Shown here piece by piece: positions 31,211-35,710 of a stretch of DNA of 48,838 nt. A model generated the notes under the pieces. The model was given only the letters and a program-made list of their open reading frames with translations, had not been told where the DNA came from and ran no database searches. Each line of letters starts with the position of its first letter. Position 1 is the first letter of the stretch. The position numbers were made by a program, and so were the translations under genes. The stretch is from Bacteroidota bacterium (GTDB taxonomy: Bacteria; Bacteroidota; Bacteroidia; Bacteroidales; BM520): the NCBI GenBank assembly GCA_002748065.1, contig PDRJ01000022.1, positions 1-48,838 on the forward strand. The letters are read 5' to 3'.

Positions 31211-32221
31211 ATGAAAAATCAACAGATGCCCCTATGGCTTATCATTATCACTTTGTTGGTAGTGACATTATTCACCACCTGTAGAGAAGAGCCGGAGGAT
31301 GAAAATCCACTGGTAGCCGGTTTTTCTGCAACACCGCTGCATGGTGATGCTCCATTGGAAGTGCATTTTACCAATGAATCAAAGTATGATCCTGAGAGCT
31401 GGATCTGGAATTTTGGGGATGGAGCGACCTCTCTTGAGGAGAATCCCGTGCACACCTATACGGATGCCGGAGAGTATACTGTAACGTTAACGGTTGTGAA
31501 AGGCAAAGACTCCGATAGTGAAATAAAGCCTCATTACATAACCGTTACGGAAGGTGGTGGCGGAACCAATGGAGCACCTTGTCCGGGGATGCCCACAGTG
31601 ACCGATATCGACGGGAATCGCTATAATACGGTTTTGATCGGCGAGCAGTGTTGGATGAAAGAAAACCTTAAAGTAACCCATTATCCCAATGGGGATGCCA
31701 TCCCCCATATCGTTGATGATGATGCTTGGGCAGCCTTGGGGGATAATAATACGGATGATGCGTATTGTTATTATGAGAATGATCCCTCAAGTGAGTATGG
31801 TGCCTTATATAGCTATGTGGCGGCTATTGGGGATAATTGGGAGCGGGATAATGCCGAGGGACAGGGAATCTGCCCCGAGGGTTGGCATCTGCCCACGGAC
31901 GAGGAGTGGACTGTGTTGGTGGATTATTTGGGAGGTTGGGATGTTGCCGGCGGAAAGATGAAGGAGGTCGGTACGGCACATTGGCAGAGTCCCAACACAG
32001 GGGCTACCAATGAGAGTGGTTTTACTGCCCTTCCGGGCGGCCACCGTGACTACAACGGCACGTTCCACAGTGTCGGTTACGACGGCGACTGGTGGTCGGC
32101 CACGGAGTGCCGCAGTAGCTACGCGTGGCACCGAGGCCTGCGCTATAGCGCTGCCAATGTGTACCGCGGCGACTATTACGAGTCCATCGGCTTCTCCGTG
32201 CGGTGCGTTCGGGATAATTAG
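31211..32221 (+). CDS. Surface lipoprotein with PKD and FISUMP domains, probable DGR target 1
   Basis: 336-residue lipoprotein counted from the ATG at 31211. Signal peptide ending LFTTC (Cys24), then acidic residues (REEPEDE) like the Bacteroidota lipoprotein export signal, so probably surface exposed. PKD-type Ig-like domain at about residues 36-112 (WNFGDGATS...HTYTDAGEYTVTLTV). A FISUMP domain (TIGR02145 type) fills residues 127-335: VTDIDGNRYNTVLIGEQCWM, ICPEGWHLPTDEEW, ESGFTALPGG, WWSATE and GFSVRCV. Residues 278-326 form a hypervariable segment whose codons are mostly NNC (variable region VR1). The next gene is a tandem duplicate. Likely role: surface ligand binding through a diversified C-type-lectin-like face; the ligand is unknown. 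Confidence 0.85.
   Translation: MKNQQMPLWLIIITLLVVTLFTTCREEPEDENPLVAGFSATPLHGDAPLEVHFTNESKYDPESWIWNFGDGATSLEENPVHTYTDAGEYTVTLTVVKGKDSDSEIKPHYITVTEGGGGTNGAPCPGMPTVTDIDGNRYNTVLIGEQCWMKENLKVTHYPNGDAIPHIVDDDAWAALGDNNTDDAYCYYENDPSSEYGALYSYVAAIGDNWERDNAEGQGICPEGWHLPTDEEWTVLVDYLGGWDVAGGKMKEVGTAHWQSPNTGATNESGFTALPGGHRDYNGTFHSVGYDGDWWSATECRSSYAWHRGLRYSAANVYRGDYYESIGFSVRCVRDN
32042..32188 (+). other. Probable DGR variable region VR1
   Basis: 49 codons at the 3' end of the first FISUMP gene, same length and frame as VR2 and VR3. The three differ in 27 amino-acid positions, and at 21 of these every copy ends in C (NNC codons). Differences concentrate on bases 1 and 2, as expected from random replacement of adenines in AAC codons of a template. 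The following GGCTTCTCCGTGCGGTG is conserved in all three and may be the homing initiation site. Confidence 0.85.
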
Positions 32222-32285
32222 CAATTAGGAATTAATAATTAGTAATTGTTTGTAAATTAAAGGGTTAATTTTGTTTTAAATGTGA

Positions 32286-32337
32286 TAATGTGATAATGTG
32301 GTAATGTGGTGATATGATAATGTGGTGATATGGTAAT
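32286..32337 (+). repeat. Short block of the 8-bp tandem repeat
   Basis: About six units of the type GATAATGT / GGTAATGT, related to the long array at 34691-35085. It is directly followed by a copy of repeat family B, as the long array is. Confidence 0.75.
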
Positions 32338-32462
32338 GGAATGATTATAGGGACGGAAGACGGAAGACGGAAGACCGAAGATGGAAGACGGAAGTTGGAA
32401 AACAATTTTTTGTGAACGTTGTCATTAACCCAAGCTAAAGGCTAACAGCCAAAAGCCAATAG
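32338..32462 (+). repeat. Dispersed repeat family B, copy 2
   Basis: Begins GGAATGATTATAGGGACGG, with extra GGAAGAC units compared with copy 1, then TTTTTTGTGAACGTT and ATTAACCCAAGC plus AAAGGCTAACAGCC. It lies between the two FISUMP genes. Confidence 0.7.
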
Positions 32463-32468
32463 CTGCTG

Positions 32469-32560
32469 AGCTCCGTAGGAGCGACACCTTTGTAATAGCG
32501 ATGCCCTTTCCTCCTCCCAAAGCCCCGTAGGGGCAATACCTTTTTGACCGTCATGCCATA
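32469..32560 (+). repeat. Repeat family C, two units upstream of second FISUMP gene
   Basis: GAGCTCCGTAGGAGCGACACCTTTGTAATAG, then after about 20 nt GCCCCGTAGGGGCAATACCTTT. The second unit is followed by the same 60-nt leader that precedes the first FISUMP gene, showing that repeat and gene were duplicated together. Confidence 0.6.
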
Positions 32561-32622
32561 ACCCCTTGTTTTTAAGGATAAAAATACTGAATTTTGTTGG
32601 AGCTACTTTAAACACGTACCTC

Positions 32623-34530
32623 ATGAAAAATCAACAGATGCCCCTATGGCTTATCATTATCATTTTGTTGGTAGTGACATTATTTACCACTTGTACGGAA
32701 GAACCGGAGGTTGAAAACCCTCCGGTAGCCGATTTCTCTGCGACACCGCTGCATGGTGATGCTCCATTGGAAGTGCATTTTACCAATGAATCACAGTACG
32801 ATCCTGAGAGTTGGAGCTGGAATTTTGGGGATGGAGCGACCTCTCTTGAGGAGAATCCCGTGCACACCTATATGGATGCCGGAGAGTATACCGTAACGTT
32901 AACGGTTGTGAAAGGCAAAGACTCCGATAGTGAAATAAAGCCTCATTACATAACCGTTACGGAAGGTGGTGGCGGGATCAATGGAGTACCTTGTCCTGGA
33001 ATGCCCACAGTGACCGATATCGACGGGAATCGCTATAACACGGTTTTGATCGGCGAGCAGTGTTGGATGCGAGAGAATCTGAAGGTAACCCTCTATCCCA
33101 ATGGGGATGCGATCCCCTATATTACCGATAAAGATGCTTGGGCAGCTTTGGGGGATAATAATACGGATGATGCGTATTGTTATTATGAGAATGATCCCTC
33201 AAGTGAGTATGGTGCCTTATATAGCTATGCGGCGGCTATTGGGGATAATTGGGCGCGGGATAATGTCGAGGGACAGGGGATCTGCCCCGAGGGTTGGCAT
33301 CTGCCCACAGATGTGGAGTGGACAACGCTTATTGATTATTTGGGGGGAGAAGATGTTGCCGGCGGAAAGATGAAGGAGGTCGGTACTGGGCATTGGCAGG
33401 GTCCCAATACGGGAGCTACTAATGAGAGTGGTTTCACCGCCCTTCCGGGTGGCTTCCGTCACAGCTACGGCACGTTCTACTCTGTCGGTAGCCACGGCTT
33501 CTGGTGGTCGGCCACGGAGGACGGCAGTAGCCGCGCGTGGTACCGCTACCTGTACTTTGACTACGCCAATGTGTACCGCTACAGCCTCGACAAGTCCTTC
33601 GGCTTCTCTGTGCGGTGTGTTTGGGGTATCATGGTGTCGGCACCGGAGGCCTCCTTTACAGCCACCCCTCTTGAAGGGAATCCTCCACTCACTGTAACCT
33701 TCACGGATCAGAGCAGCAATGCCCCTACTTCCTGGCAGTGGGATTTTGGGGATGGGGCTACTTCTACGGAGCAGCATCCGGTGCATGAATATATGGCTGT
33801 TGGGGATTATACGGTGACCCTCACGGTGGGTAATTCGTATGGTACGGGTACGGAAACCAAGGAGGCGTATATCCATGTGGAGACTCCCGGCGGTTGCCCT
33901 GCCACGGTCACCGATATCGACGGGAACCGCTATAACACGCTTTTGATCGGCGAGCAGTGTTGGATGCGTGAGAACTTGAGGGTAACCCATTATCCCAATG
34001 GGGATGCCATTCCCCATGTTACCGACTGGGGTGTTTGGGCAGCTTTGGGGGATAATAATACGGATGATGCGTATTGTTATTATGAGAATGATCCCTCAAG
34101 TGTATATGGCGGATTATATACCTATGCGGCGGCTATTGGGGATAATTGGGCGCGTGATAATGCTGAGGGACAGGGGATCTGCCCTGAGGGTTGGCATCTG
34201 CCCACAGACGGGGAGTGGTCTGTGTTGGTGGATTATTTGGGGGGAAAGTGGAGTGCCGGCGGAAAGATGAAGGAGGTCGGTACGGCGCATTGGCGTAGTC
34301 CCAACACAGGGGCCACCAATGAGAGTGGTTTTACCGCCCTTCCGGGCGGCTGCCGTAACACATACGGCACGTTCAACAGTGTCGGCTACCTCGGCTACTG
34401 GTGGTCGGCCACGGAGGACGGCAGTAGTCACGCGTGGTACCGAGACCTGATCTATGACTACGCCGGTGTGCGCGACTACTACAACAGCAAGGCCGACGGT
34501 TTTTCCGTGCGGTGTGTTCGGGGTAATTGA
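32623..34530 (+). CDS. Surface lipoprotein with PKD-FISUMP-PKD-FISUMP, probable DGR target 2 with two variable regions
   Basis: 635-residue lipoprotein, tandem duplicate of the upstream gene and itself internally duplicated. Signal peptide and Cys24 in LFTTC followed by TEEPEVE (surface-export-like). PKD1 about 36-112, FISUMP1 about 127-333, PKD2 about 340-420 (SWQWDFGDGATSTEQHPVHEYMAVGDYTVTLTV), FISUMP2 about 427-634. Each FISUMP has the motifs DIDGNRYNT, GEQCWMREN, ICPEGWHLPTD and GFSVRCV. Residues 278-326 (VR2) and 577-625 (VR3) are hypervariable with NNC-type codons; outside them the three FISUMP copies are close to identical in DNA. A protein with two diversified domains in a row would display two independent binding faces. 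Terminator-like hairpins follow the stop. Confidence 0.85.
   Translation: MKNQQMPLWLIIIILLVVTLFTTCTEEPEVENPPVADFSATPLHGDAPLEVHFTNESQYDPESWSWNFGDGATSLEENPVHTYMDAGEYTVTLTVVKGKDSDSEIKPHYITVTEGGGGINGVPCPGMPTVTDIDGNRYNTVLIGEQCWMRENLKVTLYPNGDAIPYITDKDAWAALGDNNTDDAYCYYENDPSSEYGALYSYAAAIGDNWARDNVEGQGICPEGWHLPTDVEWTTLIDYLGGEDVAGGKMKEVGTGHWQGPNTGATNESGFTALPGGFRHSYGTFYSVGSHGFWWSATEDGSSRAWYRYLYFDYANVYRYSLDKSFGFSVRCVWGIMVSAPEASFTATPLEGNPPLTVTFTDQSSNAPTSWQWDFGDGATSTEQHPVHEYMAVGDYTVTLTVGNSYGTGTETKEAYIHVETPGGCPATVTDIDGNRYNTLLIGEQCWMRENLRVTHYPNGDAIPHVTDWGVWAALGDNNTDDAYCYYENDPSSVYGGLYTYAAAIGDNWARDNAEGQGICPEGWHLPTDGEWSVLVDYLGGKWSAGGKMKEVGTAHWRSPNTGATNESGFTALPGGCRNTYGTFNSVGYLGYWWSATEDGSSHAWYRDLIYDYAGVRDYYNSKADGFSVRCVRGN
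33454..33600 (+). other. Probable DGR variable region VR2 (internal to the gene)
   Basis: 49 codons, aligned without gaps to VR1 and VR3. The reading frame goes on into a second PKD-FISUMP unit, so this variable region is not at the gene's 3' end. Examples of three-way differences (VR1/VR2/VR3): CAC/TTC/TGC, GAC/TTC/TAC, CGC/TAC/ATC, ATC/TTC/GAC. Confidence 0.83.
34351..34497 (+). other. Probable DGR variable region VR3
   Basis: 49 codons at the 3' end of the second FISUMP gene. Invariant codons shared with VR1 and VR2 are mostly adenine-free (GGC, TTC, GTC, TGG, TCG, GCC, GCG, CTG, GTG), as expected if only template adenines are mutable. The only differences not explained by a template A are a few T/C changes in third positions. 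Confidence 0.85.
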
Positions 34531-34591: not shown

Positions 34592-34618
34592 ACCGCCTTT
34601 GGCGGTCGAAATTTTTTT
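34592..34618 (+). terminator. Rho-independent terminator-like hairpin
   Basis: ACCGCC-TTT-GGCGGT stem-loop followed by CGAAA and a run of seven T. It probably ends the FISUMP transcript. Confidence 0.6.
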
Positions 34619-34690: not shown

Positions 34691-35085
34691 ATGTGATAAT
34701 GTGCTAATGCGGTAATGTGGTAATGTGCTAATGCGGTAATGTGGTAATGTGCTAATGCGGTAATGTGGTAATGTGCTAATGCGGTAATGTGGTAATGTGC
34801 TAATGTGGTAATGTGGTAATGTGGTAATGCGATAATGTGGTGATGTGGTAATGTGGTAATGTGATAATGTGGTAATGTGGTAATGTGATAATGTGATAAT
34901 GTGGTAATGTGATAATGTGATAATGCGGTAATGTGGTAATATGGTAATGTGGTAATGTGGTAATGGGATAATGCGGTAATGTGATAATGTGGTAATGTGA
35001 CAATGCGATAATGTGGTGATGTGGTAATGTGATAATGTGGTAATGTGATAATGTGGTAATGGGATAATGTGGTAATGTGGTAATG
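34691..35085 (+). repeat. 8-bp minisatellite array, about 49 units
   Basis: Nearly pure array of an 8-bp unit (variants of GGTAATGT, GCTAATGC, GATAATGT) over about 395 bp. The first 100 bp show a 24-bp higher-order period (ATGTGCTA-ATGCGGTA-ATGTGGTA). Because 8 is not a multiple of 3, every frame gives an 8-residue protein repeat; the long frames on the minus strand (HYHITTLP-like) are a by-product and not a gene. The 34531-35759 gap otherwise holds terminators, repeat B and repeat C. Confidence 0.95.
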
Positions 35086-35537: not shown

Positions 35538-35710
35538 CACTGTTATGAAGGTGTCGCTCCTACGGAGCTTTTTTGGGGTGCGTGGTATGCTGCTGTTACA
35601 AAGGTGTCGCCCCTCCGGGGCTCTTTGGGGGTGCGTGGTATGGTGCTGTTTACAAAGGTTTCGCCCCTACGGGGCTGTAAGGGTGCTTTGCTTGGTGTTG
35701 TGACAAACCT
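35538..35710 (-). repeat. Repeat family C, three inverted units
   Basis: Three units of about 55 bp on the minus strand. Each has a GC palindrome (CTCCTACGGAG, CCCCTCCGGGG, CCCCTACGGGG) next to TTACAAAGGT-type sequence and a spacer GGGTGCGTGGTATG. A weaker fourth trace follows up to 35735. Confidence 0.6.

Follow-up and report, generated by a model that had tools for sequence, protein, structure and literature searches.

Candidate orphan variable regions in two PKD-FISUMP genes of a Bacteroidales draft genome, probably written by a diversity-generating retroelement

Results

Three 49-codon variable regions (VRs) in two neighbouring PKD-FISUMP genes of a Bacteroidales draft genome (Bacteroidota bacterium, GCA_002748065.1) differ from one another in the manner of targets of a diversity-generating retroelement (DGR), and, taking all versions of this reading together, it is highly probable that a DGR wrote them. 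The window, that is, the whole 48,838-nt stretch that was analysed, is one entire contig (C25; PDRJ01000022.1) of a 2.33-Mb assembly of 55 contigs with a completeness of 97.95%. VR1 (32042..32188) lies in gene 1, VR2 (33454..33600) in the middle of gene 2, with neither a stop codon nor a hairpin behind it, and VR3 (34351..34497) at the 3′ end of gene 2, all on the plus strand; each was delimited by gapless alignment and codon-position counts, and the block corresponds to codons 148-196 of the FISUMP domain. Because the reverse transcriptase (RT) and the template that define a DGR were searched for and not found, VR1-VR3 are classed as an orphan target set, written as a DGR writes, and are not filed as a complete DGR. 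The version that we prefer, with somewhat better than even confidence, is that the three regions were written by a FISUMP-targeting DGR with an AAC-rich template that was later lost, leaving an orphan, frozen repertoire.

The counts of the original prediction were reproduced, with 27 of the 49 aligned codons varying in amino acid and 21 of these ending in C in every copy, and its start coordinate also held, as the 49-codon window of the FISUMP domain with maximal variation at bases 1 and 2 begins there. Pairwise differences at codon positions 1, 2 and 3 numbered 61, 45 and 12 in the VRs, compared to 32, 41 and 87 in the 148 upstream FISUMP codons and 0, 0 and 8 in the six codons behind the VR, a contrast that gives the block sharp edges and bears out the claim that the first two bases vary while the third is conserved, the reverse of the upstream pattern. 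The flanking DNA is less similar than the "nearly identical" of that prediction, since the upstream part of the FISUMP domain is only 87-89% identical among the three copies (VRs, 71-77%). The third base varied in 6 of 49 VR codons compared to 43 of 148 upstream codons (p = 0.02) and, among amino-acid-variable codons, in 3 of 27 compared to 15 of 26 (p = 0.0004). Within this trio the proportion of synonymous differences (pS) was 0.10-0.16 in the VRs and 0.27-0.30 upstream, while that of nonsynonymous differences (pN) was 0.26-0.33 and 0.06-0.08, respectively.

Seven FISUMP heads of the same length were found in the genome, namely the three in the window and one each on contigs C41, C19, C39 and C17 (frameshifted), and additional heads are present on C29 (slightly different length), C42 and C19. 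The copies are named here by contig, the two on C19 as C19a and C19b. C17, C29, C19b and C42 were omitted from the pS and pN comparison, as they were, together with C19a, from the test of third-base variability. The C17 paralogue is split in two reading frames near the contig end (L019/L020, G000:C17:26996-27557), being either a decayed gene or an assembly error. Several of these paralogues share a common architecture, and genes 1 and 2 are 93.8% identical over their initial 387 bases, as might be expected if the block had been shuffled between paralogues through gene conversion or recombination. This explanation is very improbable, since at most variable codons the third base is common while bases 1 and 2 differ; gene conversion itself was rejected because it would equalise all three codon positions, and sharing was observed only for the third base.

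FISUMP-targeting DGRs of other genomes provided a yardstick for this pattern. FISUMP domains are common, with 217 of 295 genomes of the order above the cut-off, and Fib_succ_major, the same domain, is named as a DGR target in sections of PMC4159848 and PMC8934634. An idealised all-AAC template matched 27 of the 295 genomes, with at least nine true AAC templates on translation (e.g., GGNRNNNGNFNNVGNNGNWW), and seven of ten such template regions fetched carried an RT bearing IGNLTSQ and YVDD. Pfam confirmed that the targets in L092 and L093 are FISUMP proteins on PKD or Ig-like stalks, and it also confirmed bAvd (3 of 3 tested). A degenerate template pattern run on the GTDB r220 collection returned 34 stretches, with a template parsed in 31 and the RT motif inside 24. 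Over 17 of the 18 template-target pairs, targets departed from their templates at 459 of 1081 adenines, compared to 12 of 1817 other bases; the remaining pair, L116 (68% non-A identity), aligned poorly and was dropped here and from the base-spectrum comparison below. In these genomes, then, FISUMP targets adjoin AAC templates and IGNLTSQ/YVDD RTs and deviate almost only at adenines. The DGRs in question, from Bacteroidota and Fibrobacterota (e.g., L092, L093, L118, L130, L132), share with the window the target domain, the variable codons, the AAC-type pattern, in some cases the hairpin motif described below and, in L092 and L093, the kind of stalk; they differ in that the template and mostly the RT adjoin the target, and neither was found in our draft genome. 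A scan of viral contigs with the template pattern returned one contig, unrelated to this genome. That viral-filed contig (L149, IMGVR_UViG_2509601030_000011) combines an AAC template and an IGNLTSQ RT with a FISUMP target, all close to those of Fibrimonadaceae genomes, e.g., L131.

Templates of other genomes (eight of the ten fetched regions parsed) stood in for the template not found in this genome. When the trio was laid against them, with C29, C19b and C42 omitted, 45 of 63 A sites varied compared to 14 of 108 other sites (p = 9e-15), 11 of those 14 being at third bases, and at codon positions 1 and 2 the counts were 45 of 59 A sites and 3 of 55 others. At base 2 of the 22 template codons, the spectrum of the trio was indistinguishable from that of active targets (p = 0.77; pairs of unequal length omitted). 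Purine third bases at these codons made up 1 of 66 in the trio and 1 of 310 in active targets, compared to 129 of 630 (20%) in five control genomes of the order, picked for many FISUMP genes and no DGR-RT match; C was the third base in 60 of 66 and in 287 of the control 630. The trio thus argues against a history without any DGR, in which ordinary mutations accumulated in duplicated FISUMP heads whose binding residues were under strong diversifying selection. Such a history is unlikely, as it predicts third-base drift at least equal to that upstream, whereas the third bases of the trio are more conserved, and as the control genomes, which show what FISUMP heads do at these codons, have purines there so much more often.

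The same contrast was seen in the share of C among two-fold NNY codons, which in this genome was 137 of 209 in the VRs and 61 of 377 upstream (odds ratio 9.9; C17 omitted). The five control genomes gave odds ratios of only 1.2-2.0 (158 domains matched, 30 of them fetched and 29 of these parsed), and for 12 heads taken from DGR loci the share was 189 of 284 in the VRs and 68 of 202 upstream. Plain codon bias was rejected as a cause, given that the third base is position-specific and that the contrast between VR and upstream far exceeds that of the control genomes. Across the seven heads of equal length, codons 10 and 35 of the VR end in T without exception, codon 39 does so in most heads, and the other variable codons mostly end in C. 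An AAT at template codon 10 would also account for the synonymous AGT/TCT pair.

Third bases at the 22 template codons fall into an order among the copies (C17 omitted). VR2 has 21 C and 1 T, VR3 20 C, 1 T and 1 A, and VR1 19 C and 3 T; C41 follows with 16 C, 5 T and 1 A and C19a and C39 with 15 C and 7 T each, and then come C29 (11 C, 9 T and 2 purines), C42 (9 C, 10 T and 3 A) and C19b (9 C, 8 T and 5 purines). As the upstream codons of these genes are T-rich, copies further along this order may have been written longer ago, although the mixed third bases of C42 and C19b may equally mean that these copies were never written by a DGR. The C39 gene has a second allele, on another contig, that carries one more PKD repeat, and the VRs of this one allele pair are identical.

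A hairpin, ACCGCC-TTT-GGCGGT followed by CGAAATTTTTTT, was identified by motif comparison 61 bases past the stop codon of gene 2 (34592..34618, plus strand), and it is likely a former DGR target-site structure. An inverted repeat behind the VR, as expected of a DGR target, was found at gene 2 only. Of 23 DGR target genes, 13 are followed by the motif at a distance of at most 150 bases, compared to 0 of 16 FISUMP genes in the control genomes and 1 of 8 parsed gene ends of this genome (the C42 gene end was left unparsed). The fetched loci, 787 kb with some overlap, contain 21 occurrences of its strict form. Of these, 19 fall within stretches retrieved on account of a DGR template or RT, and the other two are the window copy and one in L062, next to a VR-like gene of a genome that has DGR-RT-like fragments. 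The strict motif was absent from 400 kb of selected background of this genome (17% of the genome) and from 200 simulated windows. The CCGCCTTTGGCGGTCGAA of the window hairpin recurs in L105, 30 bases ahead of an Avd-like reading frame (Avd assigned by eye). In the phage BPP-1, efficient retrohoming depends on an inverted repeat behind the VR (PMC3240598), and this repeat is, as in the window, GC-rich and placed shortly behind the VR. The stem of 6 and loop of 3 bases in the window, and the distance of 61 bases after the stop, differ from the stems of 7-10, GRNA loops and distances of 4-34 bases from the VR in BPP-1 and its phage relatives, and the function of the window hairpin is putative.

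A sequence-conserved hairpin, (A)CCGC(C)NNN(G)GCGGTCGA[AT], stands behind many Bacteroidota DGR target genes, and its 3-base loop is unlike the GRNA loop of phage DGRs; it was seen at L100, L101, L104-L107, L115, L117, L120, L123, L126, L130, L132, L136, L141-L143, L147, L069, L062 and window position 34593.

According to repeat analysis, the expected place of avd, template and RT is taken up by a 395-base tandem array of 24/32-base units made of 8-mers (34691..35085, plus strand). Both FISUMP genes are followed by arrays of tandem 8-base units (GTAATGTG-like; 34691-35085 and 32279-32338), and similar short stretches are found behind the C41, C19 and C17 copies. The array was considered as a deletion scar, and an array of similar composition does follow the RT in L130, as does another in L103, yet most of the listed RT loci are without one, so no general link was drawn. 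A 9-base repeat behind VR genes was likewise considered and dropped.

The AAC-rich template beside a DGR-type RT that the original prediction would have the assembly searched for was not found, and neither part of a complete DGR, the DGR-type RT or the A-bearing template, was detected in this 55-contig draft. Searches with VR1 DNA and with the idealised all-AAC template gave eight matches each, all FISUMP genes, the best being 82-83% identical to the idealised template, and the degenerate template pattern found no template in this genome. With the PF00078 profile, the single RT of the draft lies within a 1023-residue Cas6-RT-Cas1 fusion (L009, G000:C27:18740-19372, minus strand), and a profile built from seven FISUMP-DGR RTs matched only this gene (32 bits). 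This fusion is a CRISPR adaptation protein, with RNA as a possible source of its spacers. A tblastn search confined to the window and the FISUMP loci of this genome revealed no avd relics (best E 0.026, at an unrelated place); the strong matches in the search for avd and RT relics came from RT reading frames that extend through a template, which matched the VRs, and from the Cas RT. The claim that these are VRs of a DGR with a mostly AAC template is thus supported in part, by the codon pattern, the A sites on the same codons, the base-2 spectrum and the hairpin, while the template and RT that it implies are missing from the draft. Elsewhere, at G000:C30:205-1014, four matches to the coding pattern N/D-S-x-W-W/R-C stand 264 bases apart and differ at single codons.

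An intact DGR that still writes these genes in trans, from an avd-template-RT cassette lost in a gap of the assembly or carried by a plasmid or prophage outside the bin, would also explain these negative results. Trans-acting DGRs whose targets are multiple or remote are described (PMC10907252, PMC10743442), and remote targets escape surveys (PMC8144416). As in the present genome, such systems have several targets per genome or element; they differ in keeping a template and RT in the genome. Treponema TvpA is an example. A draft of this contig number and completeness leaves room for a missed cassette, and a FISUMP gene close to the end of C17 suggests that FISUMP repeats may break the assembly. 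Against this stand the family genomes, with a DGR-type RT in 0 of 8 and no template match better than VR-like genes, the contig itself, which continues past the gene 2 hairpin without a cassette, and the third bases of the C41, C19, C39 and C29 copies, which are already mixed. We regard a missed or trans-acting cassette as possible but clearly less probable than loss of the cassette.

Gene 1 (31211..32221, plus strand) encodes a hydrophobic N-terminal segment with a Cys, predicted by eye to be lipoprotein-like, one PKD domain and one FISUMP head (31631-32212), and gene 2 (32623..34530, plus strand) two PKD-FISUMP units (FISUMP at 33043-33621 and 33946-34521). The assignments rest on Pfam (PF09603, PKD) and NCBIfam (TIGR02145) matches above cut-offs; PF09603 scored 139.5 and 273.1 bits (cut-off 33.9) and TIGR02145 120.2 and 234.4 (cut-off 41.65), which places both genes in the FISUMP family. 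The VR occupies the C-terminal end of the C-type-lectin-like domain, the position expected in a DGR target protein. Comparison of a full-length model with the PDB, like a PDB sequence search, matched mainly the PKD part. The neighbourhood consists of ordinary chromosomal genes, with GSCFA, LPG synthase-like and pantoate ligase genes upstream and those for a thioredoxin-like protein, an S41 peptidase and a superoxide dismutase downstream, and an Rfam search returned one tRNA only. A protein encoded in a genome of the same genus (G001) is identical to one recorded for a Marinilabiliales bacterium (P0016), and the organism is thus probably related to that group. A 53-base repeat (2.6 copies, 35540-35676) with the palindrome GCCCCTACGGGGC also recurs as lone copies between other genes of the window.

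Discussion

Several observations weigh against writing by a DGR since lost. The reduction in pS is limited to the trio, as the VR pS of distant paralogues (all-pair mean 0.31) is close to that upstream (0.35), a result consistent with the trio having been written recently and the remaining copies earlier or from other templates. The same sites also vary in FISUMP heads of genomes that gave no DGR-RT match, so the match to template sites is partly a property of the fold, and a weak C excess was also seen in three of the five control genomes (p 0.006-0.018). At base 1, C accounts for 11 of 52 changed bases in the trio compared to 14 of 202 in active targets (p = 0.007), and four other paralogues have 13 of 64, with base 2 differing as well (p = 0.03). 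This excess argues against fresh copying by an RT of the same kind, and its explanation by erosion is hypothetical. Both the shared variable positions and the base-1 C excess are what a history of ordinary mutation and selection has in its favour. Neither VR1 nor VR2 is followed by such a hairpin, 10 of the 23 DGR targets also lack the motif, and no relics of avd or RT were found by tblastn at the site behind the hairpin. Finally, in a draft genome a missing cassette is indistinguishable from a lost one.

Loss of the cassette is nonetheless the version we lean toward, and its proposed history runs as follows. The FISUMP heads of the two genes differ in one sharp 49-codon block, chiefly at bases 1 and 2, and in other genomes FISUMP targets depart from the adjoining DGR templates almost only at adenines. 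Such a DGR would have rewritten the block, given the agreement in variable codons, in shared third bases and in base-2 spectrum, with the hairpin behind gene 2 probably its target-site structure. Duplication of the written genes may then have been followed by C-to-T erosion of third bases at former template codons, and avd, template and RT may have been deleted, perhaps between the hairpin and the tandem array. In its fullest form, to which we give an even chance, the mutator was lost through deletion of avd, template and RT behind the hairpin, the written genes were kept and duplicated, and C-to-T third-base erosion serves as a clock that dates each orphan VR. In the predicted protein, which would be lectin-like and anchored at the cell surface, the variable residues would make up the binding face, and each copy would have a fixed specificity of its own.

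Conclusions

DGR surveys commonly begin from the RT, and a search of the open-licence PubMed Central (PMC) literature found nothing on orphan DGR variable regions or on the hairpin motif. A DGR origin of some FISUMP domains points to ligand binding as their predicted function. If VRs outlive their mutator, part of the bacterial lectin-like repertoire would be DGR-made yet invisible to RT-based surveys. The codon-3 fingerprint and the hairpin motif offer two RT-independent routes to orphan or remote targets and to an estimate of when writing ended. If genes are indeed written and then frozen as proposed, third-base erosion would allow lost DGRs to be found in genomes that RT-based surveys leave unflagged.

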